Source of the DNA: Flavobacterium aurantiibacter
Lineage (GTDB): Bacteria > Bacteroidota > Bacteroidia > Flavobacteriales > Flavobacteriaceae
DNA: 64,000 bases
Assembly (NCBI RefSeq): GCF_002251775.1
Contig: NZ_NOXX01000207.1
Coordinates: forward strand, 490 to 64,489
Reading direction: 5' to 3'
A program made the translations under genes and the position numbers. The notes below the pieces were generated by a model. That model worked only from the letters and a program-made list of their open reading frames with translations, was not told the DNA's origin and searched no databases. Positions 84-59,338 of this stretch are shown piece after piece (position 1 is the stretch's first letter; each line of letters starts with the position of its first letter).

Positions 84-983
84 ATGACAATTTTACCGAC
101 ACAAATAAAAAATCAGCGTGTTTTTTTACCGGGATGCGATCGCGTTTCGGTTTCGATGAAGCGACTCGATTTGTGGCATCCGGTGGTTTCTGGCAATAAG
201 TTTTTTAAACTAAAATACAATTTAGAAGCCGCCTCAAAAATGGGTGCAAAGCGTATTGTAACCTTTGGTGGTGCGTTTTCAAACCATATTGCTGCTTGTG
301 CGTATGCGTGTAATAATGCTGGTTTTGAGTCGGTTGGAATCATTCGTGGCGAAGAGCTCGAATTTCAAGAGCGCAACGCTACTCTACGCTTTGCCGAAAG
401 TTGTGGCATGCAGCTGCAGTTTGTGTCGCGCGAGATTTATTCCAAAAAGCAATTGCCGTTTAAAATTGCTTCCACCGATTTTATCATTCCCGAAGGCGGT
501 GCCAACGAATGGGGTGTGCAAGGCTGTCGGGAAATTTTATCGGAATCCGACTCGAAATTCGACTTCATTGCGGTATCGCTCGGAACCGGAATCACGGCGG
601 CCGGTTTGTCGCATGCCTTGTTTCCACAACAACAATTACTCGTTTTTTCTGCTTTGAAAGGCGCACTAACTGACAGCGATTTTTTTACTTTTGCCGATGC
701 AAAGCGATACCGACTTTTTGAGCAGTATCATTGCGGCGGTTACGCGAAATGTCCGCCTGAATTAGTGCACTTTATCAACGATTTTTACAAACAAAACGGT
801 TTTTTACTTGATCCGATTTACACCGGAAAAATGATGTTCGGTTTAGGCGATTTAGTACAAAACGGATTTTTTAAAAACGGGGCAAAAATTTTAGCCATTC
901 ACACCGGCGGATTGCAAGCAATTTCTGGTATGAATGCACGTTTGAAAGCAAATGAACTCTTAGAAATACAAACTGAATTATGA
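84..983 (+). CDS. PLP-dependent 1-aminocyclopropane-1-carboxylate deaminase/D-cysteine desulfhydrase family protein
   Basis: A 299-residue fold-type II PLP enzyme. The family deaminates D-cysteine or 1-aminocyclopropane-1-carboxylate to a keto acid and ammonia in the cytoplasm. The Schiff-base lysine is Lys39 in the SGNKFFKLKYNL motif. The phosphate-binding region is seen as FGGAFSNHIAA (about residues 60-70), with a later glycine-rich stretch SLGTGITAAG. The length fits the family. The start at 84 is set by the promoter box at 71-78 and by the family's short N-terminus. The stop overlaps the next ATG by four bases (ATGA at 980-983), so it is translationally coupled to the glucosaminidase gene. 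The true substrate cannot be read from sequence; flavobacterial members are generally uncharacterised. Confidence 0.85.
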   Translation: MTILPTQIKNQRVFLPGCDRVSVSMKRLDLWHPVVSGNKFFKLKYNLEAASKMGAKRIVTFGGAFSNHIAACAYACNNAGFESVGIIRGEELEFQERNATLRFAESCGMQLQFVSREIYSKKQLPFKIASTDFIIPEGGANEWGVQGCREILSESDSKFDFIAVSLGTGITAAGLSHALFPQQQLLVFSALKGALTDSDFFTFADAKRYRLFEQYHCGGYAKCPPELVHFINDFYKQNGFLLDPIYTGKMMFGLGDLVQNGFFKNGAKILAIHTGGLQAISGMNARLKANELLEIQTEL

Positions 984-1837
984 AGTATTTACTGGCTTTA
1001 GTAGCTGTTTTATTTTTAGCAACCAGCTGCAAATCGAAACAAAATTTAGTGCGAACCACTAAAACGGAACCGAAGATTAAAACCGTGAAAACAAAACCGG
1101 TTGCCCAGAATTCTGCAAACCAAACGCAAACCACGAAATCAAATAACCCGAAAAAAACAGAAACCATTGTATCGACATCAAATACTGTGGTATATACCGA
1201 AGTAGTGCAGTCGTATGTGAACGATTTCAAAGACGTTGCCATGTCGAACATGCGTACTTACGGAATTCCGGCGAGTATAATCTTGGCTCAAGGAATTTTA
1301 GAGTCGGGAGCGGGTAGAGGTCGGCTGGCGGTTGAAGCCAACAATCATTTCGGAATTAAATGTCATAAAGATTGGACCGGCGAGAGTGTTCGTCACGACG
1401 ACGACAGCGAACAGGAGTGCTTCAGAAAATACAACGATGCCAGCGAATCGTATCGGGATCATGCCGTTTTCCTAACAGGAAGACAACGCTATGCTTCGTT
1501 ATTTCAATTAGAAAAAAACGATTACGAAGCTTGGGCACGCGGTTTAAAGAATGCAGGTTATGCCACCGATCCGAAATACCCGGAGAAGTTAATTTCGTAT
1601 ATAGAGCGTTACGAGTTGGCACAATACGATGCGGCTGTTTTGGGTAAAAATTACATTCCGAAGCAGGCATCTAGCGAATCGATTGCCTACAGCAACAGCA
1701 ATTATTACGAAGTGCAAAAAGGCGATACGTTGTATTCGATTTCAAAGCGGTTCGGACTAAGTGTTGAAGAATTAAAATCAAAAAATAATTTGGCAGACAA
1801 TGCGATTGCTGTCGGACAAAAAATTAAAATCAAATAA
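980..1837 (+). CDS. Lipoprotein N-acetylglucosaminidase with C-terminal LysM domain
   Basis: A 285-residue peptidoglycan hydrolase. A lipoprotein signal ends at Cys17 (LFLATSC). A linker rich in Lys, Thr, Asn and Gln runs over residues 18-70. The glucosaminidase domain spans about 75-205, with [12 protein letters not shown] holding the likely catalytic Glu108 and the family motif NNHFGIKC. One LysM domain (about 243-285, [20 protein letters not shown]) binds glycan strands. It is expected on the periplasmic face of an envelope membrane, cutting GlcNAc bonds during wall turnover. It overlaps the upstream gene by four bases and the downstream hemL by one base, so the three form one transcription unit although they share no obvious pathway. 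Confidence 0.9.
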
Positions 1838-3123
1838 TGGAATACAAAAGGAGTAGTGCTTTATTTATTGAAGCGCAACAGTATATTCCGGGAGGTGTAA
1901 ACTCTCCGGTACGAGCATTTAAAGCGGTTGGCGGACATCCGATTTTTGTTAAATCGGCAAAAGGCGCTTATCTGTATGATGAAGATGGCAACCGATTGAT
2001 TGATTATATTAACTCGTGGGGACCAATGATCTTAGGACATGCCTACGAGCCCGTAGTGGAAGCTGTGATTGAAAAAGCAAAATCGGGAACTTCGTTTGGA
2101 ATGCCTACGGAAATTGAAACTGAAATCGCGAAACTAGCCATTGAAATGGTTCCAGGCATCGATAAAATTCGGTTTGTAAATTCCGGAACTGAGGCTTGTA
2201 TGAGTGCTATTCGTTTGGCGCGCGGTTTTACTTCGAGAAACAAGATTATAAAATTTGCGGGCTGTTATCACGGTCATTCCGATTCGTTTTTAATTCAAGC
2301 CGGCAGTGGTGCCAGTACGTTTGGTATGCCAAATAGTCCGGGTGTAACCGTTGGAACAGCACAAGATACGCTATTGGCAACATACAACAATGAAGCTAGT
2401 GTTCGCGAGTTGTTTGCGGCCAATCCGCATGAAATTGCCGCACTAATTGTGGAGCCGGTAGCGGGTAATATGGGTTGCATTCCTCCTGCAGCAGGATTTT
2501 TACAGTTTTTGCGCGACATCTGCTCGGAGAATAATACGCTGTTGATTTTCGATGAGGTAATGACGGGCTTTCGATTAGCTAAAGGAGGCGTACAAGAGTT
2601 ATATGGTATAACAGCCGATATTTGTTGTTTTGGAAAAGTAATTGGCGGCGGTTTGCCCGTAGGTGCATTTGCAGCTCGTCGGGAAATCATGGATTTTTTA
2701 GCGCCAGTTGGACCTGTGTATCAAGCCGGAACATTGTCTGGAAATCCGTTGGCTATGATTGCCGGACTAACGATGCTACGTGCAATTAATTCCGATGCCG
2801 AGCTGTTTAAAAGGCTCGAGGAGAAATGTGCGTATTTAGAAAACGGTTTGCGTGTGGCATTTTCAGAAACTGCGATTCCGTTTACGATAAATCGGGTTGG
2901 ATCGATGATTTCAATTCACTTCGCCAAGGAAAGTGTTGTTGATTTTGCCACTGCAAAGCTCGGCGACAACGAGTGGTTCAAAAAGTTCTTTCACGGCATG
3001 CTTCAGGAAGGCGTTTACATTGCACCTTCGGCTTACGAAAGTTGGTTTTTAACCGATGCTTTAACTTACGAAGATTTAGATTTTACGATTAGAGCCGCTA
3101 AGAAAGTCGCGGCAGAGATGTAA
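1837..3123 (+). CDS. hemL: Glutamate-1-semialdehyde 2,1-aminomutase
   Basis: A 428-residue PLP enzyme that converts glutamate-1-semialdehyde to 5-aminolevulinate in the C5 route to haem. Visible signatures are [12 protein letters not shown] at the N-terminus, the substrate/PLP region [19 protein letters not shown] (residues 112-130), Asp239 in FDEVMTGFR and the Schiff-base Lys267 in [15 protein letters not shown]. Length and motifs match bacterial HemL closely and separate it from other class III aminotransferases. Its ATG shares a base with the stop of the glucosaminidase gene, and a strong bidirectional terminator follows at 3153-3181. Confidence 0.96.
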
Positions 3124-3152
3124 CTGGAAGCTGTTTTATGGGGATATGAAAC

Positions 3153-3181
3153 AAAAAAGGCGGTCAATCGACCGCCTTTTT
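3153..3181. terminator. Bidirectional intrinsic terminator after hemL
   Basis: A perfect seven-base-pair stem GGCGGTC/GACCGCC (3159-3165 with 3170-3176) closes a four-base loop. It is flanked by A6 on the left and T5 on the right, so it can end transcription from both sides. It serves hemL and the converging minus-strand gene whose stop is at 3183. Confidence 0.88.
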
Positions 3182-3182
3182 C

Positions 3183-3545
3183 TTAATGGGTTATATTGTG
3201 AAAAACTTCTTTGTTTGCTTTCAATTTTTCAAATTGATCTGCAGGAATTGATGCCTCTATTTTTCTAGCAATAGTTTGATAAATTATTTCTTTGCGTTCT
3301 TCGCTACCACCTGTTGCTTCATTTAGAAGACGGTATTTTGTGGTAAATAACTCTTTAAACGATTCTCTCTGTTGTTCAGTTAGCGTGAGAACCGTACTTA
3401 ATTCCTCTAAGTTGCTTTCCACTTTTTTCACGTCGATTCCGGCACTTTTAGTTGTTTGCGGAGAGGTGAGAGTAGCTTGAGTGGTTTTTTGAGCAAAACT
3501 AACCAAGGAAAAAAACAATATTCCAACTACTAGAAAATTTTTCAT
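3183..3545 (-). CDS. Small exported protein, Spy/CpxP-like
   Basis: A 120-residue protein with a Sec signal peptide (MKNFLVVGILFFSLVSFAQ, cleavage near residue 19). The mature part is mostly predicted helix and carries LTLTEQQRESFKELF, which fits the LTxxQ motif of periplasmic Spy/CpxP-type chaperones. Only one such motif is clear, so the assignment is tentative and rests on motif and size. It is the second gene of a two-gene minus-strand pair with the protein ending at 3598. The gene ends two bases from the shared terminator. Confidence 0.6.
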   Translation of the reverse strand: MKNFLVVGILFFSLVSFAQKTTQATLTSPQTTKSAGIDVKKVESNLEELSTVLTLTEQQRESFKELFTTKYRLLNEATGGSEERKEIIYQTIARKIEASIPADQFEKLKANKEVFHNITH

Positions 3546-7668: not shown

Positions 7669-9561
7669 ATGAAATATAATACAATTTTTAAGATTTTATC
7701 TTGCTTTGTTGTTTTTCACGGTTTTTCTCAAACTGCAGAGCAGAGAAAGGATATAAGTAAAAGTTATGATGTTCGTGCAGCAAAAGAACTAGCAAATGAG
7801 CTTTCGGAAAGATATTTTGCTAGAAAAGCCGAGGCAATCCGATTAGCAGAACTCAATAATTGGCCAATTACTTACGTTGCCCAAGATTCATCTTATCGAG
7901 AGTTGATGTATGTAGAAGAGGGAAGACCCATTTATTATGCAACTCACAACGCTGGTGCAGCTAGAACAATTCGGGTAAACAGAATCAATACGGGTGGAGT
8001 AGCTGGATTAGATCTAAATGGTCAGGAAATGGTCGCAGGTATCTGGGACGGCGGTCCAATTCGTACGTCGCATGTTGCGCTGGTTGATCGAGTGATTACA
8101 ATGGATGGTGAAAACTTCGTGAATAGTAACGAAGGTTCTAATCATGGAACGCACGTTGCAGGAACCATGATTGCTAGCGGTGTTGGGAGTGCATCTGCAA
8201 GAGGCCTTGCATATCAGGCAACACTTTGGGCAAATACGTTTGCCAACGACGAATCAGAAGTTGTAAGCCAAGCTTCCGATGGCTTACTTGTGTCCAATCA
8301 TAGCTACGGAATTCCTGTTGAGAACGTAGTAAAAAGTGTTCGCGGGAAATATATAGGTGAGTCTCGTGCATGGGACCAATTTATGTATAGTTATAAATAC
8401 TATCAACCCGTAATCTCAGCAGGGAATGATAGAGGTACGCCTGATGATGATGAAGCAGGTTACGACTTGTTAGTCGGTAACAAAAACAGTAAAAATGCAG
8501 TGGTAGTTGCTGCCGTGGGTACAGTTAATAATTACAATGGGCCAGAATCGGTTGTTATGAGTACATTTAGTAGTTGGGGTCCGACAGATGATGGTAGGAT
8601 AAAGCCAGATATCAGTTCCAAAGGAGTAAGTGTATTCTCGACTGGCTCAGCATCCAATAGTTCTTTTTATTCAAATCAAGGAACGTCTATGGCTGCGCCT
8701 GGTATCGCTGCAGGTTTGTTATTGCTGCAGCAGCATTACTTCAATGAAAACAATACGTTCATGAAATCGGCAACTCTGCGAGGAATCATGATAAATAGTG
8801 CAGATGAAGCAGGGGATTATCCAGGACCTGATTGTAGATTTGGTTGGGGACTGATGAATGCTGAGCGAGGTGCTGAGATAATTTCGAATGTAGAATCTTC
8901 TAGCTTAATTGAAGAGAATGTGCTACAAGAAAACGCCACTTATAGCAAAACAATATTTTCCGATGGTAATGAACCACTAAAGCTTACTTTAGCTTGGACA
9001 GATCCCGCTGGTTCAATTGCAAACTCCGTTGAAGACAGTTCAACTCCTGTTTTAGTGAACGATTTGGACGTTCGTATTACAAAGGATGATCAAACTTACT
9101 TTCCATGGGTACTCGATTTGAATTTTATTCAAGGCGAGGCACTAAAACAAGACAATGCTGTGGACAACGTTGAAACCATTGAAATTTTAGAGCCTACCGC
9201 AGGCTTCTATCAAATTACAGTTAGTCACAAGGGATCTTTGTTTTCAAACGCTCAAGAATATTCTCTGATTGTAAACGGAATCAATGTGCCGCTTTCAACT
9301 CCAGAACTTTCACAGAGTAAAGTGCAGCTGTTCCCTAATCCGGCAACGAGCGAGGTAAGCTTATATCTTGAAAATATTGATAATGCTGATTGTGACATCA
9401 CAATTACAGACGCAATAGGACGAAAAGTAAATAATTTCAAGAAATTAAATCAAAGCGGAGATCTTATTCGTTTAGATGTATCGGCGCTTTCATCAGGTAT
9501 TTACTTTGTTGCTACTCAATATAATGGCTTGAGTGTTGTTAAGAAGCTTGTAATAAAATAG
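7669..9561 (+). CDS. Secreted S8 (subtilisin-like) serine protease with T9SS sorting domain
   Basis: A 630-residue secreted protease. Signal peptide about 1-20 (MKYNTIFKILSCFVVFHGFS). Catalytic triad Asp127 (VAGIWDGGPIRTSH), His159 (SNHGTHVAGTM) and Ser340 (NQGTSMAAPGIAAGL), with oxyanion Asn at SAGND (near 252). A beta-rich P-domain-like region follows (about 410-540). The C-terminus from about 552 (VQLFPNPATSEVSLYLEN) to KKLVIK is a type A T9SS sorting domain, so it should pass the outer membrane and be anchored or released. It lies 135 bases upstream of a SusC/SusD operon on the same strand, which suggests, without proof, that its peptide products feed that transporter. Confidence 0.93.
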   Translation: MKYNTIFKILSCFVVFHGFSQTAEQRKDISKSYDVRAAKELANELSERYFARKAEAIRLAELNNWPITYVAQDSSYRELMYVEEGRPIYYATHNAGAARTIRVNRINTGGVAGLDLNGQEMVAGIWDGGPIRTSHVALVDRVITMDGENFVNSNEGSNHGTHVAGTMIASGVGSASARGLAYQATLWANTFANDESEVVSQASDGLLVSNHSYGIPVENVVKSVRGKYIGESRAWDQFMYSYKYYQPVISAGNDRGTPDDDEAGYDLLVGNKNSKNAVVVAAVGTVNNYNGPESVVMSTFSSWGPTDDGRIKPDISSKGVSVFSTGSASNSSFYSNQGTSMAAPGIAAGLLLLQQHYFNENNTFMKSATLRGIMINSADEAGDYPGPDCRFGWGLMNAERGAEIISNVESSSLIEENVLQENATYSKTIFSDGNEPLKLTLAWTDPAGSIANSVEDSSTPVLVNDLDVRITKDDQTYFPWVLDLNFIQGEALKQDNAVDNVETIEILEPTAGFYQITVSHKGSLFSNAQEYSLIVNGINVPLSTPELSQSKVQLFPNPATSEVSLYLENIDNADCDITITDAIGRKVNNFKKLNQSGDLIRLDVSALSSGIYFVATQYNGLSVVKKLVIK

Positions 9562-49419: not shown

Positions 49420-50901
49420 TTAAAACTGAAAATAGATAAAGGTTGTTCTTGTAGTAAATACACCAAAAACCAGAATTGAAAGTAACAGCAGTAAACACTT
49501 TGTATACTGGTATTTTCCGAAAATAGGATGTTCTCTTCCGCGTGATAGCCAGTCTATTCCAACAAATAGTACTAGCAGAACAATGGTTAGTTTTGTGTTT
49601 TCTGGCCATCCGCTGCTGTTTTTGTATTTTGAGAATGCTAGTAGGTTTTCAATATAAAGAAAGGCTTCATTGATGCTTTTGGAACGGAAGAAAATCCAAG
49701 CGAAGCAAACAAGTAGGAATGTTACAGACATCTGAAACAACTCTTGTAATCGCGGAATCATTCTATGTTCCGCAACAATACCAAGATGCTTTTTTGTTTG
49801 GTTTAGAAAAATTAAAGGAAGGAAAAATAATGCGTGCAGCAATCCCCAAAAAACAAAAGTTAGGTTAGCTCCATGCCAGAAACCACTGAGTAAAAAAACA
49901 ATTAAGGTATTTCGAATCGTTTTTACTTTTCCTTGCCGGTTCCCACCCAATGGGATGTACACATAGTCGCGAAACCAATTGGAAAGCGACAAGTGCCAGC
50001 GACGCCAAAACTCGGCTATATCTCTCGAAAAATAAGGTTGTTTGAAATTTTGAATCAGCTCTATTCCGAAGAGTTTTGAGGTACCTAGTGCTATGTCGGA
50101 ATAACCAGAAAAGTCGCCGTATATCTGAAAAGCGAAACAAATAGCGCCAAGTGCTAAAAACGTTGAGTCGTGATTTTCGCTGTTGTCGAAAGCTGCATTC
50201 GCCACAACGGCACACTGGTCGGCAACGACAACTTTCTTGAAAAAGCCCCAAGCGATTTGATAAAATCCTTGAATCGCCGCGTCGTAACTGAACTTTCGCG
50301 ATTTTTTTAGCTGTGGTAACAAATGCGTAGCTCGCTCGATGGGGCCTGCAACTAATAAAGGGAAATAGCTTACAAACAAGGCATAAGTTATAATATTTCT
50401 TTCTGGCTTTATTCGCTCTTTGTAAACGTCGATTATATAAGAAATTCCGTGGAACGTGTAGAACGATATTCCAACTGGCAGAATTATCTCTAGGCTATGC
50501 ATTCCTATGTTAAATCCGATATTTTCTAGTAACTGGCTGAACGAGTCGATGAAAAAGTTGACGTACTTAAAATAGCCAAGAAATGCCAAATTCATTCCGA
50601 CGCTTACCCAAAGCCAAAGTTTTCGTTTTTTTAGAACCTTTTCTCGGTCTATTTTAAACGCACAATAATAGTCGAGCAGCGTAGAAAACCCCAACAGAGC
50701 CAAAAATCGGTAGTCCCAAAAACCATAAAATAAAAAGCTCGCACCTAATAGTAAGCTGTTTTGCCATTTGATGCTGTTTTGAAAACGGATCCAATACAAA
50801 CCGAAAACGATTGGTAAAAAGAGCGCATAATCAAACGAATTAAACAGCACAGTTTTTTGTTTATTAGGTGTTGAAAGTAGGAATTTTTTACCAAACACCA
50901 T
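49420..50901 (-). CDS. MBOAT-family membrane O-acyltransferase (AlgI-like)
   Basis: 493 residues with about ten membrane segments. The AlgI/DltB-type MBOAT signatures are FWRRWHLSLSNWFRDYVYIP with GGNRQGK, and the presumed catalytic His in SGFWHGANLTFVFWGL. Family members transfer acyl groups to exported polysaccharides or teichoic acids. The acceptor here is unknown, and no partner SGNH (AlgX/DltD-like) gene is adjacent. The start is uncertain: the ATG at 50901 adds seventeen residues before LFNSFDYALFLPIVF, which normally begins the family, so a GTG at 50850 is a good alternative. Confidence 0.88.
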   Translation of the reverse strand: MVFGKKFLLSTPNKQKTVLFNSFDYALFLPIVFGLYWIRFQNSIKWQNSLLLGASFLFYGFWDYRFLALLGFSTLLDYYCAFKIDREKVLKKRKLWLWVSVGMNLAFLGYFKYVNFFIDSFSQLLENIGFNIGMHSLEIILPVGISFYTFHGISYIIDVYKERIKPERNIITYALFVSYFPLLVAGPIERATHLLPQLKKSRKFSYDAAIQGFYQIAWGFFKKVVVADQCAVVANAAFDNSENHDSTFLALGAICFAFQIYGDFSGYSDIALGTSKLFGIELIQNFKQPYFSRDIAEFWRRWHLSLSNWFRDYVYIPLGGNRQGKVKTIRNTLIVFLLSGFWHGANLTFVFWGLLHALFFLPLIFLNQTKKHLGIVAEHRMIPRLQELFQMSVTFLLVCFAWIFFRSKSINEAFLYIENLLAFSKYKNSSGWPENTKLTIVLLVLFVGIDWLSRGREHPIFGKYQYTKCLLLLLSILVFGVFTTRTTFIYFQF

Positions 50902-52492
<1,591 letters not shown>

Positions 52493-52510
52493 GTAATTAC
52501 TATACTTTGT

Positions 52511-52538
52511 AAGACCCGGATTTTGTCCGGGTTTTTTT
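52511..52538 (+). terminator. Intrinsic terminator of eno
   Basis: Perfect stem ACCCGGA (52514-52520) with TCCGGGT (52526-52532), a five-base loop and a T7 run. Confidence 0.9.
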
Positions 52539-52660
52539 GTGCAATTAAGTCAATGAATATCAGTTTTTAACCCCAAGATTTGATGGAAATCTAATCCATT
52601 AACGCAACCCGATTCATTTTTGTTTATCCTATGGTTGTAACCTTTAAACAAACCCAGGAC

Positions 52661-55498
52661 ATGAAACAGAAATTACTTCTATTGCTCTTTGTAGCATGGA
52701 GCGGATTTTCCCAGCAGGTAAATTTCACCGATCCAAATTTGAAGGCGTTCCTTCTTGTAGCGGGAACAAGTTTTTCAAATGCCTTTGACGAAAATTATAA
52801 TCCAATTGCTGTCGATGCAGACGGCGATGGTGAAATATCTACTCAAGAAGCTCAAGCCGTTTACTATTTAGATATCGCCTTTTTTGATATCAGTAGCATT
52901 GGTGGTTTGGAGGCTTTTACCAATCTGCGAATGCTCGACTGTTCATATACAAACTTGCAGGGTCAGTCGATAGATTTAACAACTCTTACCAATTTGGAAG
53001 TACTGCGTATAAGCAATTGCGGTATCGCCGATTTAAACATCGCCGGATTAAACGCACTTAAAACTTTGTATGCCGACCAAAATAACCTTATTGGTTTCAG
53101 CCTCTCCAATCATAATGCGATAGAAGCTATTTCATTGTCCGCTAACCAATTGACGGCTATTAATTTGGCGAATCTTCCTGGCTTGAAACTTTTAAATGTA
53201 AATCAAAATCAACTAACAGCGCTAGGATTAGACAATACGCCAGCTCTAGAAAATCTGATGTTTTTCAGTAACTCGATTAGTCAGGTAGATTTTTCAGGTT
53301 TTCAGTTCCTGCGAAGCATTATCGGTTACGATAATAATTTGACAACAGTCGACGTGTCATCTAACCCTAATTTATTCGAGCTTGGTTTAAGCGATAACGA
53401 AATCACTTCGGTAAATTTTTCAGCTACAAATGCACTACTGTACACGGTTAATTTGTCTAATAATCTGCTAACATCGATCGATGTTTCTGGATTAATATCA
53501 TTATCCGATTTAGCACTAACAAATAACCAGATTAGTTCGTTAGATGTCGCTTCAAATGCATCCCTACGCGGTTTGTTTGTGTCGCAAAACAGTTTGAGCC
53601 AGCTCGATGTATCGGCAAATCTTATGTTGAATATACTCGAATGTGCTAGCAACAACTTAACGGAATTAAATCTAGAAGGTTTGAGTTTTCTTTATCAATT
53701 AGATTGCAGCTATAACGCACTTACAAGCCTGTCTCTAGAAACAAATACCGCTATTTATTCGTTGCGCTGCAATAATAATGCATTAACTGCTTTAGATGTT
53801 TCAGGTCAGCCGACTCTTTATGTTTTGGATTTTTCATCGAATCCTATTTCAGAAATCGATTTAAGTACGCAAATGTATTTGTCGGAACTTTATGCAAACA
53901 ACACCAATGTAGTTGATTTGGATTTATCGAATGCCTCATACTTGTTTGTAGTGCGATTCGCTCCAAACGAAAATCTTGAATCGGTTAATTTAAAGAATAA
54001 CGGTTTTCAGGATATCTCATTCTCTGGAAACGATTTTACGCAAGTTCCTAATTTGCAATTTATTTGTGTAGATGAATTTGAAACGACGTTCTTTCAGTAT
54101 TACGTCAATCAAGTAAATCCGAACATCATCGTAAACGGATATTGTACGTTTGAACCTACAGGAACATTCAATACAATTTCAGGTGTTGCGCGATTCGACT
54201 TCGACAACGATGGTTGCGAAGATGCCGATTTACCCGTGCCGAATCTTCAAATAAACATCACAAATGGTCAAGGAAGCGGAGCTTATTTCACTAACGAAAG
54301 CGGAACCTTTGCATTTGCAGTTCCCGCCGGAACCTATACGTTAAATGCTTCGATTGCCAATGCAGAAGCTTTTCAAATTTCTCCATCACAATCAACCGTT
54401 TCCTTTACAGAGGAAGACGGCGCTCAAACCGCAACCGTTGATTTTTGCTTGACACCAATAAATCCGACTGCCGACGGAGAAATTACCGTACTTCCGTTTT
54501 CTGTTCCGTACATTGGATACGAAACGTATTACCAAATTATCGTCACAAACAAAGGCAGCTTACCTATATCTGGAACGGTTTTCTTTAACTTCGATGGAGA
54601 TGTTGCATATTTAAGTATTGCTTCGCCTTTCGCCGATTCGGTAACCGCGAATCAAGCAGCTTTTAACGTAGATCAGTTATTGCCTTTTGAACAACGTACT
54701 ATTATAGTAGCTTTGATGTTTCAGGCTGATCCTACGGTAGCACTTCCAATAGATTCATTTAATTTCTCAGCTCAGTTCGTGATTAATCAAACCGATGTTA
54801 ACCCAGACGACAATACATTCGAGTTTATACAATCAACACAAGAGGCTCAAATTGAAAATGCAGTTTTCTGTTTGGAAGGCGAAACAGTTGATGCGTCGGA
54901 AATTGGAGAATACCTGCACTATGCAGTAAGCTTTAGAAATACCGGTACAACAGCAGCTCCTTTTGTAGTGTTGCGTTCCGAGTTAGACGGAAATAGCTTC
55001 GATTTAAGTTCCATTCAAGTAGTTAGCGCCACTTCTCCAGTAACTACACAAATCACAGGAAATGTACTGGAATTGATTTTTGAAGATTTAAATCTGCAAC
55101 CGGGTGCTGAAGGAGACGTACTGCTCAGAATGAAGTCGAACCCTAATTTACAACCTGGCGATACAGTGGCGTATGGCACTTCAGTTTATCTGGATTACGA
55201 CACCATGGTTAACACTAATTTAGCCCAAACAACGTTCCAAGCTGCTCCACTTTCTGTTGACGACAATGAAGTTACTGTTGGCGTTTATCCAAATCCAACG
55301 AGCAGTAAACTATTCATCGACGCCAAGAATAAAACAATTGGAAAAATTGCTGTTAGCGATCTTGCAGGAAAGCAAGTTTTAACCACAACATATAACAATA
55401 CCACCGGAATCGACGTGCAAAGTTTAGCCCCAGGCATGTATATACTTAATGTGGAAACATCCAACGGTAAATCCGTTCAAAAATTTATGAAAAAGTAA
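52661..55498 (+). CDS. Secreted leucine-rich-repeat protein with T9SS sorting domain
   Basis: 945 residues from the ATG at 52661, which opens the signal peptide MKQKLLLLLFVAWSGFSQ; an ATG thirty bases upstream is not needed. Residues about 60-470 are some eighteen repeats of 20-21 residues of the type LxxLDVSxNxxLxxLxLxxN (for example NQISSLDVASNASLRGLFVS). A FDFDNDGCEDADLPVPN stretch opens a Cna-B/SdrD-like beta domain (about 500-590), then a DUF11-like domain region (about 600-830). The C-terminus VGVYPNPTSSKLFIDAKNK...KFMKK is a T9SS type A sorting domain. Likely cell-surface binding or adhesion; the ligand is unknown. Confidence 0.92.
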   Translation: MKQKLLLLLFVAWSGFSQQVNFTDPNLKAFLLVAGTSFSNAFDENYNPIAVDADGDGEISTQEAQAVYYLDIAFFDISSIGGLEAFTNLRMLDCSYTNLQGQSIDLTTLTNLEVLRISNCGIADLNIAGLNALKTLYADQNNLIGFSLSNHNAIEAISLSANQLTAINLANLPGLKLLNVNQNQLTALGLDNTPALENLMFFSNSISQVDFSGFQFLRSIIGYDNNLTTVDVSSNPNLFELGLSDNEITSVNFSATNALLYTVNLSNNLLTSIDVSGLISLSDLALTNNQISSLDVASNASLRGLFVSQNSLSQLDVSANLMLNILECASNNLTELNLEGLSFLYQLDCSYNALTSLSLETNTAIYSLRCNNNALTALDVSGQPTLYVLDFSSNPISEIDLSTQMYLSELYANNTNVVDLDLSNASYLFVVRFAPNENLESVNLKNNGFQDISFSGNDFTQVPNLQFICVDEFETTFFQYYVNQVNPNIIVNGYCTFEPTGTFNTISGVARFDFDNDGCEDADLPVPNLQINITNGQGSGAYFTNESGTFAFAVPAGTYTLNASIANAEAFQISPSQSTVSFTEEDGAQTATVDFCLTPINPTADGEITVLPFSVPYIGYETYYQIIVTNKGSLPISGTVFFNFDGDVAYLSIASPFADSVTANQAAFNVDQLLPFEQRTIIVALMFQADPTVALPIDSFNFSAQFVINQTDVNPDDNTFEFIQSTQEAQIENAVFCLEGETVDASEIGEYLHYAVSFRNTGTTAAPFVVLRSELDGNSFDLSSIQVVSATSPVTTQITGNVLELIFEDLNLQPGAEGDVLLRMKSNPNLQPGDTVAYGTSVYLDYDTMVNTNLAQTTFQAAPLSVDDNEVTVGVYPNPTSSKLFIDAKNKTIGKIAVSDLAGKQVLTTTYNNTTGIDVQSLAPGMYILNVETSNGKSVQKFMKK

Positions 55499-55528
55499 AT
55501 TACAGAAGTTCTCAGTATTTTACGAGGG

Positions 55529-55560
55529 AAAGTCGGCCATTTGAGCCGACTTTTTCTTTT
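55529..55560 (+). terminator. Intrinsic terminator of the leucine-rich-repeat gene
   Basis: Nine-base-pair stem AAAGTCGGC (55529-55537) with GCCGACTTT (55545-55553), then TTCTTTT. It separates this gene from the unknown gene and kinase pair. Confidence 0.88.
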
Positions 55561-55599
55561 TTCTAACCACTGTGTTAAATTTTTAAATGAACCAAAAAA

Positions 55600-55615
55600 T
55601 ACCTATAAGTAGGTA
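55600..55615. promoter_or_regulatory. Inverted heptamer pair TACCTAT-AA-GTAGGTA, candidate operator
   Basis: Arms TACCTA and TAGGTA are perfectly inverted; counted as heptamers the layout is 7-2-7, as in NarL-type sites. The centre (55607.5) lies at about -44.5 of the start predicted from the TAAGTTTG box at 55638-55645. That is an activator-type position for the gene at 55669. The neighbouring NarL/FixJ regulator (57093) is the obvious candidate protein; this is inferred. Confidence 0.5.
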
Positions 55616-55637
55616 GTTTTTAGTTTTTGCTTCTCTA

Positions 55638-55645
55638 TAAGTTTG
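55638..55645 (+). promoter_or_regulatory. -7 promoter box TAAGTTTG of the unknown gene at 55669
   Basis: A full TAnnTTTG match. No TTTG lies at -33 (TTTT at 55617-55620 instead), which fits a promoter needing an activator. The predicted start near 55652 leaves a leader of about 17 bases and excludes an in-frame start at 55627. Confidence 0.5.
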
Positions 55646-55668
55646 GACATGTAAAAAACAACTTTGTT

Positions 55669-56202
55669 ATGTCTATCATTGTTAATTACCCGCACAAACC
55701 ATATTCGGTGAGAAATTCTCGAAATTTTAGTTCAGGAAGCATCGATGTGCAAATTATTTTGCCAGAGGAAGTAAACGGATTGCCCTTACATTTTGAAATA
55801 GGGCCGGTTTACAATATTTCAAGTGGTATTCGAAACGCGATTATGATTTACCTCAAAGAAAAAAGTGGTAACGACATCAACGTATCAAGAGAATCATCTT
55901 TCTTAATCAACAAGAGTTTCAACATCAATCTCGACAATTTAATCGCAGTAGAAGGGAGCAGAGACATTAATTTTTCACGCGATAGCATTCACGTTTACGT
56001 TTGTCATCAAGCTCCCGAATTACGAAATATTAACGATGTAGTTTATTGCCAAAATCATGTTCCAGGTCCCGCTACATTAGCAAGTTTGTTACTTGAAGAA
56101 AGCAGGTACTTTGCAGTTAATGGCGATAGTTTTTTTGAGGATGATCCTTCACAAGTTCCAAGTTTTCCAACAAAATACGGAATGGGAGTCATTAGAAATT
56201 AA
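55669..56202 (+). CDS. Protein of unknown function upstream of the kinase/regulator pair
   Basis: 177 residues with no signal peptide, membrane segment or family motif that I recognise. It begins MSIIVNYPHKPYSVRNSRNF and contains several short beta-strand-like segments (IDVQIILPEEV; LHFEIGPVYNIS) and a hydrophilic centre rich in Asn, Asp and Ser. The last 30 residues (EDDPSQVPSFPTKYGMGVIRN) look extended. It is the only gene between the terminator at 55529 and the kinase gene, 93 bases downstream, so it may belong to the same unit or be its target. Confidence 0.6.
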   Translation: MSIIVNYPHKPYSVRNSRNFSSGSIDVQIILPEEVNGLPLHFEIGPVYNISSGIRNAIMIYLKEKSGNDINVSRESSFLINKSFNINLDNLIAVEGSRDINFSRDSIHVYVCHQAPELRNINDVVYCQNHVPGPATLASLLLEESRYFAVNGDSFFEDDPSQVPSFPTKYGMGVIRN

Positions 56203-56295
56203 ATCGAGTCAAAACAAAAAAATAACAAAAAACAGTTTCTGATTTACTAATTGCTGTCGCTACATGGATATTTAGCAGCAGCCAAAAAATAAAAA

Positions 56296-57096
56296 ATGCA
56301 AGTAATTACCGGCCACATAACGCCAACTTTCGCTCTAACTCTTATTCTAGTGCTTTTTGCAGTTGTTGCGCTATTAATTTATTTAACGATTTTATGCCGT
56401 CGTGTATATGTGCAGCAAAACCAGAAGATTCTGCTGCAGCGAAAGGTTTCCGAAATTAAAGAACGTGAACTTGATCAAATAAGCTTAATTCTCGAAAGCC
56501 ACGAAATATATCGCAAACGCCATGCAGAAGATTTTGTCGACTTCATCGGAAATACCATAACAGCAATTCGACTCAACTTCGAAGAATATGCTTCAGACGT
56601 TCGAAAGCCAGAGTATAAAGCACAGAAAATCTCGGAATTATTGTCGAAAGTGTACGAGAATGTTCGCAAAGCGCCAGAAAACAAATATGTTGAAGCTCCA
56701 AAGACATCGGGACTTGTAGCGGCAGTTCAATCGTTAGCGCAGCAAATTGGTGTCGTCGGAAAGTTAAAAGTGCAAGTCCTTCCGTTTAACCTGCAAAGCC
56801 GGATCGAAGAGCGTATTGAATTATTGCTGTTTAGCATTATTCGCGAACTCGGTACGAATGTCGTTGAACACGCACAAGCCTCCGATCTGACTATTTATTT
56901 AAATGAAGATGATGCCCGAAATTTAACGATCATTGTCGAAGACAACGGAAAAGGTTTTACATTCGATGCTATAAACGCCAAAGCTGAGTCTGGTCTAAAG
57001 AAAATAGAAAAGATAATTGAAGATTTAGGCGGCACGTTTAATGTTGATTCAAACATCAACAACGGAACAACCATTATTGTAACTTTAAAGATATGA
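56296..57096 (+). CDS. Sensor histidine kinase-like protein with degenerate H-box
   Basis: 266 residues. One membrane segment (about 11-34) has no sizeable sensor domain outside, then a coiled coil (40-70). The HisKA_3-type dimerisation region aligns residue by residue as LILESHEIYRKRHAEDFVDFIG; the usual IAEDLHD reads HAEDFVD, so Val81 occupies the phospho-acceptor His position. The ATPase domain is intact: N-box RELGTNVVEHAQAS, G1 VEDNGKGF, and GLKKIEKIIEDLGGTF with NNGTTIIV. The stop overlaps the regulator start by four bases. It may be a phosphatase, a non-phosphorylating partner, or use another His (His69, His76). Confidence 0.75.
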   Translation: MQVITGHITPTFALTLILVLFAVVALLIYLTILCRRVYVQQNQKILLQRKVSEIKERELDQISLILESHEIYRKRHAEDFVDFIGNTITAIRLNFEEYASDVRKPEYKAQKISELLSKVYENVRKAPENKYVEAPKTSGLVAAVQSLAQQIGVVGKLKVQVLPFNLQSRIEERIELLLFSIIRELGTNVVEHAQASDLTIYLNEDDARNLTIIVEDNGKGFTFDAINAKAESGLKKIEKIIEDLGGTFNVDSNINNGTTIIVTLKI

Positions 57097-57707
57097 TTCG
57101 AATTGTTTTGGCGGACGATCATCAATCACTTATCGACGGTTTGGTGTCGGGAATTTCCGATAGCGGTAACATAAGTGTTATCGGAACGGCACAAAACGGC
57201 ACCGATTTGGTGAAACTCGTTCGCTTAAAAAATCCCGATGTTGTTGTAACAGATATTCGTATGCCGGGAATCGATGGTAAAGCGGCGGTTTACGAAATTC
57301 TTAAATATCAGCCCCATGCACGAGTAATTGCATTCAGTATGTTTGATTCGCCACCACTTGTAAAACATTTTCAGGAAATTGGCGCTCGCGGCTACGTTTT
57401 TAAAAGTTCACCGCTTTCGGTATTGATAAGCGCAATAGAAACAGTTGCACATGGAGGAACGTATTTTGAAAGACCTGTAACTACTTTTAGCATCGATAAT
57501 CTTGAAGAAAAAGTACAGCTCAGTAAACGGGAACAAGAAATTTTAGAACTGATCGCAAAAGGACAAACCTCCATTGAAATTGCAACATCACTGAATATTA
57601 GCAAAACCACTGTCGACACACATCGAAAAAATATTCTTCAAAAGTTACAGCTTGATGGCCGAGCCGATTTGGTGCGATTTGCCGTTGAAAATAAATTCGA
57701 CTTGTAA
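57093..57707 (+). CDS. NarL/FixJ-family response regulator
   Basis: 204 residues. The receiver domain (1-120) has the acidic pair Asp8-Asp9, phospho-acceptor Asp54 in VVVTDIRMPGIDG, Ser82 and Lys104, all canonical. The LuxR-type HTH (about 140-200) has LSKREQEILELIAKGQTSIE and SKTTVDTHRKNILQKL. It should bind DNA as a dimer. Coupled by a four-base ATGA overlap to the kinase-like gene. Unlike its partner it lacks no key residue. Confidence 0.93.
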   Translation: MIRIVLADDHQSLIDGLVSGISDSGNISVIGTAQNGTDLVKLVRLKNPDVVVTDIRMPGIDGKAAVYEILKYQPHARVIAFSMFDSPPLVKHFQEIGARGYVFKSSPLSVLISAIETVAHGGTYFERPVTTFSIDNLEEKVQLSKREQEILELIAKGQTSIEIATSLNISKTTVDTHRKNILQKLQLDGRADLVRFAVENKFDL

Positions 57708-58054
57708 TCTAATTTTCAGGAACCTTTGAATCAAAATCTCTAGTTCGGATTTTATCTAATTTTTTTCGCTTTCGCGGAAGATTCTATGCGCAGCGTAAAA
57801 ATATGAAGTCCATTAATCGACAACATTTCCAGTGGTCGTTTTGTTCAGGAAGTGTTTTGTTTCGTTAACTCGAAGCATTAACTAACAGTATTTCTTCGAA
57901 GAAGGCACGATTCATTCCCAACAGGTTTGCACTACAATTTCGACCGATTTATAAATAAATTAACGAAAACGTTAGCGCAAAGATTTTTTTAACGGTTTTG
58001 TATTATGTAAGTTTGTTAAATCTTTAAACAAGTTTACTTAAACACATTTATTAT
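57708..58054. other. Intergenic region before gltA
   Basis: 347 bases with no gene. It holds a perfect inverted repeat TAACG-AAAA-CGTTA (57961-57974) and the gltA -7 box (58008-58015). No clear terminator for the response regulator gene is visible. Confidence 0.5.
58008..58015 (+). promoter_or_regulatory. -7 promoter box TAAGTTTG of gltA
   Basis: A full TAnnTTTG match 39 bases before the ATG. The -33 position carries TTTT rather than TTTG. The inverted repeat at 57961-57974 is centred about 54 bases upstream of the predicted start and could bind a regulator. Confidence 0.5.
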
Positions 58055-59338
58055 ATGTCAAAATCGGCATTTCTAGAATTAGATGGCAACAGGTATGAGT
58101 TTCCTATTATCGAAGGAAGCGAAAACGAAGTTGCAATTGATATCAATAAACTGCGAGATGTTACCGGTGCAATAACCATGGATCCGGGATACAAAAATTC
58201 AGGTTCGTGTACCAGCAACATTACATTCCTCGATGGCGAGGAGGGTATTTTGCGCTACCGTGGTTACGCTATCGAAGATCTGGCAGAAAAAGCAACTTTT
58301 CTTGAAGTCTCTTACCTAATTATTTTTGGCGAATTGCCAACTCATGCGCAACTAGCACAATTTGAGGCTGATATTCGAAAATATTCGCTTGTGAACGAAG
58401 AAATGAAAAACATCATCGATGGTTTTCCAAAAACAGCACATCCGATGGGCGTACTTTCTTCGCTAACAAGTGCCTTAACCGCTTTTAATCCAAAAGTTGT
58501 TAATGTTGAAAACGAAGCCGAAATGTATGAGGCTATCGTTAAAACTATGGGTAAATTCTTGGTTTTGGCTACTTGGACATTCCGCAAGTCGTCGGGATAT
58601 CCATTGAATTACTACGATAATACAAAAGGGTATGTCGAAAACTTCATGCGACTTATGTTTGAATTACCAACGGGTCCGTATGAAATAAATCCAGTTGTTG
58701 TTAAAGCTTTAGACAAGTTGTTTATTCTGCATGCCGATCACGAGCAAAACTGTTCTACATCGACCGTTCGTATGGTTGGATCTTCGCACGCAGGCTTGTT
58801 TGCATCTATTTCGGCAGGCGTTTCTGCACTTTGGGGTCCGCTCCACGGTGGTGCAAATCAAGCGGTATTAGAAATGCTTGAAGCAATTCAAAAAGACGGT
58901 GGCGATGCAGGAAAATACCTTGCAAAAGCAAAAGATAAAAATGATCCGTTCCGTTTGATGGGATTCGGACACCGTGTATACAAAAACTTCGATCCAAGAG
59001 CTAAAATTATTAAAAAAGCCGCCGACGAAGTATTGGCTAATTTAGGAGTTAATGACCCGATTCTAACTATAGCCAAGCAATTGGAAGAAGCTGCTCTTGT
59101 TGATGAATACTTCGTAAGTCGTAAGCTGTATCCAAACGTCGATTTCTACAGCGGTATCATTTACCGTGCGCTCGGTATTCCAACGGATATGTTTACCGTT
59201 CTTTTTGCCATCGGTCGTTTGCCTGGATGGATCGCGCAATGGAAAGAAATGCGCGAAAACAAAGAACCAATTGGTCGTCCGCGACAAATTTATACCGGAC
59301 ATCCACTGCGCCCATTTAAAACGTTTGAACAGCGCTAG
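58055..59338 (+). CDS. gltA: Citrate synthase
   Basis: 427 residues, the long Gram-negative type. First step of the citric acid cycle. Catalytic regions: His in GSSHAGLFASISAGVSAL, HRVYKNFDPRAKIIK with the second His, and the Asp in VDFYSGIIYRALGIP. ILHADHEQNCSTSTVRMVG is also diagnostic. Preceded by its own promoter and followed by a terminator. Confidence 0.97.
   Translation: MSKSAFLELDGNRYEFPIIEGSENEVAIDINKLRDVTGAITMDPGYKNSGSCTSNITFLDGEEGILRYRGYAIEDLAEKATFLEVSYLIIFGELPTHAQLAQFEADIRKYSLVNEEMKNIIDGFPKTAHPMGVLSSLTSALTAFNPKVVNVENEAEMYEAIVKTMGKFLVLATWTFRKSSGYPLNYYDNTKGYVENFMRLMFELPTGPYEINPVVVKALDKLFILHADHEQNCSTSTVRMVGSSHAGLFASISAGVSALWGPLHGGANQAVLEMLEAIQKDGGDAGKYLAKAKDKNDPFRLMGFGHRVYKNFDPRAKIIKKAADEVLANLGVNDPILTIAKQLEEAALVDEYFVSRKLYPNVDFYSGIIYRALGIPTDMFTVLFAIGRLPGWIAQWKEMRENKEPIGRPRQIYTGHPLRPFKTFEQR

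Follow-up and report, generated by a model that had tools for sequence, protein, structure and literature searches.

The window analysed here is a 64,000-nucleotide stretch of Flavobacterium aurantiibacter DNA (NCBI RefSeq assembly GCF_002251775.1, contig NZ_NOXX01000207.1, positions 490 to 64,489 of the forward strand), in which eno, an LRR-type gene, orf191, a kinase-like gene, a gene for a LuxR-type response regulator, and gltA follow one another in that order (Table 1). The start of the regulator gene overlaps the stop of the kinase-like gene (ATGA), an overlap present in all three species of the clade described below. The kinase-like open reading frame (56296-57096, plus strand) contains YRKRHAEDFVDFIGN, with Val at residue 81, and its 266-aa product comprises, from N to C terminus, a membrane helix, a helical linker, a DHp-like hairpin, and a CA domain. 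Pfam recognizes HATPase_c (PF02518) in this protein at 42.3 bits, against a cut-off of 26.4, and gives no match to HisKA_3 (PF07730) at E values up to 1; of the 43 sequences in our core alignment (A1), 40 match HisKA_3 at E up to 0.1, with the window protein among the three that do not. Its best NCBIfam match is UhpB (residues 47-264, E 1.9e-19), far under the cut-off of that model.

The neighbouring orf191 is 90-92% identical across the three-species clade (dN/dS 0.09-0.15), was matched only in its own genome among 199 genus genomes searched, has no Pfam, NCBIfam, or PHROG match, and yields a model of pLDDT 49. Since it ends 93 bases before the kinase-like gene, the two possibly belong to one transcription unit. 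Farther upstream, LRR-type genes related to that of the window also precede gltA, sometimes more than one at a time, in 7 of 11 stretches from other species (L076, L077, L079-L081, L083, and L084); the region upstream of gltA is perhaps a hot spot for such genes.

Table 1. Genes and residues at the locus, in window coordinates
Feature	Position	Strand	Basis
eno	51200-52492		named by eye
large LRR-type surface protein gene	52631-55498		named by eye
orf191 (from inner ATG), clade-restricted neighbour	55669..56202	+	conserved in three-species clade
pseudo-histidine kinase gene, 266 aa	56296..57096	+	ORF; HATPase_c 42.3 bits, no HisKA_3; DesK-like model
hydrophobic helix, ~residues 12-34, probable membrane anchor	56329..56397	+	by eye; model helix pLDDT 88-94
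Val81 codon GTC, phospho-acceptor His position	56536..56538	+	alignment with relatives
Asp82 (DesK Asp189), kept	56539..56541	+	D in 61/61 family, 3/3 clade
Asn86, clade-specific amide at DesK Gln193	56551..56553	+	family S 41, G 13, A 7
Leu93, regulator-docking residue at DesK Leu200, kept	56572..56574	+	L in 52/61 family, 3/3 clade
Glu128, family His	56677..56679	+	H in 61/61 family
Glu191, N-box Lys lost	56866..56868	+	family K 60, R 1 of 61
Glu231, first G2-box Gly lost	56986..56988	+	family G 61/61; clade E/E/D
LuxR-type response regulator, receiver intact	57093..57707	+	Response_reg + GerE; D8, D9, D54, S82, K104
gltA	58055-59338		named by eye

The phospho-acceptor histidine is absent from a three-species clade

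A preliminary description of this DNA had proposed that Val81 takes the place of the phospho-acceptor His, to be checked by alignment with orthologues at the same locus, and this proposal is borne out. Two orthologues, L038 and L039, are 94 and 93% identical to the window protein in the best segment of a contig scan; a search of 398 genus genomes recovered the same two (94 and 92% identical), and the clade of this protein, as found, consists of three pond Flavobacterium species. Gene order is that of the window from the LRR gene onward in L038 and from eno to gltA in L039. Residue 81 is encoded by GTC in the window and is Ile (ATC) in both orthologues; across 72 aligned kinase cores, the same position is His in 61/61 family and 8/8 outgroup rows. 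All 40 non-clade rows of A1, each contained in the larger alignment, likewise carry His. GTC and ATC each lie two bases away from a His codon (CAY) and, as the loss is common to three species, sequencing error at residue 81 is ruled out; so is a misplaced H-box, which aligns gap-free to both the family and DesK.

These counts are defined by the following samples. A1 holds 3 clade members, 32 members of the genus TPR-containing kinase family, and 8 more distant sequences; it omits L001, L040, L041, and L062, which are copies, along with some further distant loci. The 72-row alignment adds 29 loci from the family search, in which 91 genomes matched and 30 were taken as loci (29 besides our own), with L145-L150 outside the His count. 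The genus search had 52 matched genomes, with 30 matches taken as loci, and His was read in loci only. In two further sets of non-window rows, His was read in 34/36 and 29/29, L004 and L007 being unaligned over the H-box. Thirty kinase loci of the F. aurantiibacter genome were scanned with short motif patterns, which are too crude for counting His-less kinases. Two kinase matches in that genome, L005 and L006 (contigs C185 and C189), have the same scores in opposite orientation and are perhaps an assembly duplicate, and a HATPase_c match at 9210-9503 of its contig C159 has an internal in-frame TAG, which may mark a broken kinase gene or an error of assembly.

ATP-site residues are lost while the gene is held by purifying selection

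The N, G1, and G2 boxes had been described as intact, which applies only in part. The clade keeps N188 of the N-box, D216, G218, and G220 of G1, and G233, but in all three members the N-box Lys191 is replaced by Glu (family K in 60/61 and R in 1/61) and the first Gly of the G2 box, Gly231, by Glu, Glu, and Asp (family G in 61/61). We take these two positions to lie at the ATP phosphates in GHKL kinases. VraS reads S-Y-G-L at its G2 box and its structure was solved with ADP, so a protein lacking only the first Gly may still bind nucleotide; catalysis with an acidic residue at position 231 together with K191E is, judging from these residues, unlikely. Elsewhere, the His at position 128 has become Glu (family H in 61/61) and Glu72 has become Tyr, His, and Tyr (family E in 61/61). 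Where the genus family is conserved to 90% or more, all clade members differ from it at 43/97 positions in the kinase and 25/99 in the regulator (Fisher p 0.007, with sites treated as independent). On sequence grounds, the protein at 56296-57096 is a pseudo-histidine kinase, i.e., a protein of histidine kinase fold in which the acceptor His is absent and ATP-site residues are lost, and it is very probably kinase-dead.

His69 and His76 had both been put forward as alternative acceptors. His76 is ruled out, being Asn in both orthologues. His69, present in all three clade members, is an unlikely acceptor because it stands twelve residues ahead of the acceptor position, at a site where the family has Gln (61/61). 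Retention of His69, of N188, and of the G1 box would be what a still active kinase working through such a residue had to offer; set against the position of His69, the Asn of the orthologues at residue 76, and the loss of K191 and G231, we consider continued kinase activity very improbable.

Nei-Gojobori dN/dS values among the three species are 0.072, 0.054, and 0.064 for the kinase-like gene (dS 0.36-0.62), 0.034, 0.039, and 0.039 for the regulator, 0.022, 0.026, and 0.013 for gltA, and 0.151, 0.110, and 0.087 for orf191. The kinase-like gene is held by purifying selection and is not decaying. Loss of several highly conserved residues and of the TPR half found in relatives is what might be expected of a functionless relic; with dN/dS of 0.054-0.072 at this dS, an open frame, and the overlapping start and stop in three species, decay is ruled out by the low ratios and a relic is the least credible of the readings we considered. 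The earlier suggestion that selection preserved the fold and the partner, with canonical phosphotransfer very probably lost, agrees with these ratios, with the DesK-like fold described below, and with the intact regulator.

The receiver residues of that regulator, D8, D9, D54, S82, and K104, are indeed present in all three orthologues, as had been noted for the window; residue 8 is Asp in the clade and Glu in the family. Phe84, at T+2 (the position of DesR Phe82), occurs in the clade and in 31/31 family regulators, and the position of DesR Arg84, which pairs with DesK Asp189, is Ser86 in the clade and Gln (27), His (3), or Asn (1) in the family. These regulator counts derive from 31 of the 32 genus family loci, one of them partial, L055 being without a regulator.

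The pair is related to TPR-containing kinases of Flavobacteriaceae

The nearest relatives of the protein are Flavobacteriaceae TPR-containing HisKA_3 kinases paired with a LuxR-type regulator, mostly 585-650 aa long (~600), with TPR_12, HisKA_3, and HATPase_c in the four full-length members scanned (4/4). The core of the window protein is 31-39% identical to theirs (32 genus rows) and the adjacent regulator 42-52% identical to their regulators. These kinases share its core from the membrane helix onward, but they differ in that (i) they carry a TPR half that is absent from the window protein, (ii) they keep the His, the N-box Lys, the first G2 Gly, and His128, all lost in the window protein, (iii) they have Ser, Gly, or Ala where the clade has Asn86, and (iv) their genomic place is different. 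No TPR match was found by Pfam in the 266-aa frame, and tblastn with the N-terminal 330 residues of as many as five TPR kinases returned no upstream relic better than E 0.31 in 50000-58100. A separate arrangement occurs in L152 (G567, 843-3388), where a TPR-like open reading frame stands apart from a family kinase-core frame that keeps its His (DLHDNLGS).

In the kinase tree, the clade nests within the Flavobacterium part (99/89*), and its stem measures 3.0 changes per column compared with a median end branch of 0.14; the regulator tree, made without 7 of the 72 kinase rows for which the regulator match was too short (L055, L059, L002, L091, L093, L109, and L104), likewise places it there (99/94*), with a stem of 2.0. 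A sister position to the whole family was unrejected by AU tests (p 0.056 for the kinase, 0.276 for the regulator, and 0.137 without six long rows). Descent of the clade from within the TPR-kinase family is favoured by these trees, and the long stems would reflect either fast change or an unsampled lineage. Under either origin, every relative and outgroup sequence that was read has the His.

A canonical pair at the same locus was absent from 11 gltA stretches (11-11.5 kb, from 11 genomes; tblastn, E up to 1e-4). No second close copy was found in the F. aurantiibacter genome, where the next match has E 4.1e-20 and the best other kinase is only 28% identical to the window protein. Searches beyond the genus gave no closer relative in 397 family genomes (E up to 1e-28), 296 order genomes (E up to 1e-38), or 395 phylum genomes (E up to 1e-32), draws that overlap; the best match outside the genus is 37% identical. 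In another Flavobacterium genome (G016), locus L073 (6679-15566) has a diverged, His-bearing kinase-regulator pair that is separated from eno by ~6 kb and lies on the opposite strand; the pair may perhaps have been linked to eno in the past.

The predicted fold corresponds to that of DesK

The AlphaFold2 model of the window protein has a mean pLDDT of 77 and a pTM of 0.53, with moderate confidence (pLDDT ~55-72) in the blocks of the DHp hairpin. Its CA domain resembles that of VraS (4gt8; Z 18.3, rmsd 2.2 over 131 residues), and matches to DesK chains range from Z 15.1 to 16.5. Among the latter are the DesKC-H188V entries 3ehh (Z 15.7, rmsd 7.8 over 175) and 3ehj (Z 15.5, rmsd 9.2 over 187), for which we take the large rmsd to reflect domain arrangement. 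Of the 12 DesK rows that cover the DHp domain, 7 start at an offset of 107 residues (the others at 106, 110, 110, 111, and 111), and the profile alignment of the two proteins is ungapped through the H-box; V81 would thus correspond to His188, D82 to Asp189, N86 to Gln193, and L93 to Leu200.

This correspondence brings in an engineered protein of Bacillus subtilis. DesK H188V has Val at the structural position of Val81, followed by Asp, and shares the DHp and CA fold of the window protein. It is a laboratory mutant, whereas the loss in the clade is natural; it has Gln193 where the clade has Asn86; and its structures bind ADP or AMP-PCP, according to their entry titles, while the CA domain of the window protein has lost K191 and G231. 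As described in PMC5231405, DesKC H188V still acts as a P~DesR phosphatase, in vitro as well as in vivo, and stays trapped in the phosphatase state, in which His188 of DesK is buried in the DHp core. In the same account, Gln193 is placed for positioning the hydrolytic water, Leu200 docks in the regulator, Phe82 (T+2) of the regulator inserts into the hairpin, and the CA domains of the phosphatase complex carry nucleotide. H188V is also reported to abolish DesK activity (PMC8301901), and the ChrS variant Q191A is termed phosphatase-deficient (PMC9491836). DesK has five membrane helices (PMC8301901), in contrast to the single N-terminal hydrophobic helix of the window protein. With respect to the hallmarks of DesK-type phosphatases, the clade has the Asp directly after the acceptor position (D82), whereas the residue five positions after it is Asn86 instead of Gln.

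Discussion

We propose that the clade protein is a kinase-dead, dimerizing, regulator-docking protein that lowers the phosphorylation of its regulator, an explanation that is the best available and to which we give about even odds. The protein would dimerize at the membrane through its DHp-like hairpin, which would dock on the receiver domain of the co-encoded LuxR-type regulator; once docked, it would lower the phosphorylated pool of the regulator, as a natural counterpart of DesK H188V. The aliphatic residue 81 would pack into the site that buries the His side chain in the phosphatase state, with Asp82 retained, and Asn86 could position a hydrolytic water. Phosphate would reach the regulator from another kinase or from a small phosphodonor. 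The parts of this proposal differ in strength: we infer that autophosphorylation by the clade protein is very probably lost, and docking on its own regulator is quite probable, while phosphatase or other net negative action on the regulator could equally well prove right or wrong.

The phosphatase idea gains strength from the DesK H188V precedent and from the presence of Asn86 at the position of Gln193, and the kept Leu93 and regulator Phe84, along with Asn86, would fit a phosphatase-like, regulator-binding state. Several points speak against it. The amide is Asn and not Gln, and we came across no experiment on a DxxxN motif within a HisKA_3 hairpin; DesK-like docking would have to accommodate Ser86 in place of DesR Arg84, as well as DHp positions 83, 89, and 90, near the dock, which differ from the commonest residues of the family. 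In addition, the CA domain is without K191 and G231, while the DesK complex carries nucleotide according to the account cited above (PMC5231405). A stronger version of the idea, which we advance only tentatively, is that nature turned a former sensor kinase into a dedicated, sensorless regulator phosphatase. The aliphatic residue 81 would then lock the state that traps DesK H188V, contacts to the ATP phosphates would have been discarded, and a catalytic amide, Asn86, would have been acquired at a site that is Ser, Gly, or Ala in the parent family.

The main rival takes as its model DivL of Caulobacter, which is of the HisKA class and not HisKA_3. Here, the hairpin would bind the regulator, perhaps only when phosphorylated, without hydrolysis, as a silent reader or tether that changes the location or availability of the regulator or the state of a third protein. 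DivL is a natural case of acceptor-His loss in which the fold, regulator binding, and a conformational switch are kept with Tyr in place of His, according to PMC5361649, and it is described as a pseudohistidine kinase without catalytic activity that acts on CckA (PMC12189002). The loss of K191 and G231 from the CA domain and the retention of the docking residues Leu93 and regulator Phe84 would suit such a reader. Differences from DivL are that the clade has Val or Ile at the acceptor position, that the window protein has no large sensor or partner domain, and that its regulator is the gene's own neighbour and DivL acts through CckA. The missing sensor counts against this reading, as does Asn86, whose occurrence in all three clade members in place of the family Ser, Gly, or Ala suggests catalysis over mere binding. 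We therefore consider a silent reader rather unlikely.

Next comes the possibility that the protein must heterodimerize with, or else modulates, a second HisKA_3 kinase in the cell, and that this kinase phosphorylates the regulator. The Corynebacterium ChrS pseudokinase offers a comparison: ChrS is of the NarL-type class, and its pseudokinase form is a kinase-dead two-component member like the window protein, although it arose in the laboratory by a frameshift in the CA domain and retains its His. DesK heterodimers with H188V in one partner are active depending on which partner carries the change (PMC8301901). Native ChrS and HrrS heterodimerize, and the ChrS pseudokinase promotes HrrS-dependent signalling, its effect depending on HrrS; the same source gives no significant two-hybrid evidence for heterodimers of the truncated ChrS pseudokinase (PMC9491836). 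The F. aurantiibacter genome has other HisKA_3-like kinases, yet the best of them is the distant one noted above (28%) and gene order points to no partner. This makes a heterodimer improbable, and we return to a docking protein that lowers regulator phosphorylation as the preferred reading.

Pseudo-histidine kinases are a recognized kind of protein, and the window protein is a real, conserved member in which the set of lost and kept residues is unusually clear. The acceptor His is substituted in ~1% of kinases, with Tyr, Gln, Asn, Arg, and Asp given as examples (PMC5361649). The survey in PMC12632262 counts domains without His as 56 of 16,025 for HisKA_3 and 722 of 76,471 for HisKA; natural His-less HisKA_3 domains are thus rare there, rarer than in HisKA, and its authors note that the trend should run the other way if pseudo-kinases generally acted as phosphatases. 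The window protein goes unrecognized by the HisKA_3 model of Pfam, and proteins of this sort can therefore escape surveys that begin with that model. In the open-licence literature, we found no mention of this Flavobacterium kinase-regulator pair.

Ultimately, the pair is of interest in that a natural Val or Ile for His substitution is one already characterized as a DesK laboratory mutant, and its own intact regulator adjoins the gene, with close orthologues and many canonical members of the parent family available, which makes a pseudokinase role directly testable. If a dedicated phosphatase is indeed what this locus encodes, the pair would be a one-way off-switch for a regulator that is charged by another source.
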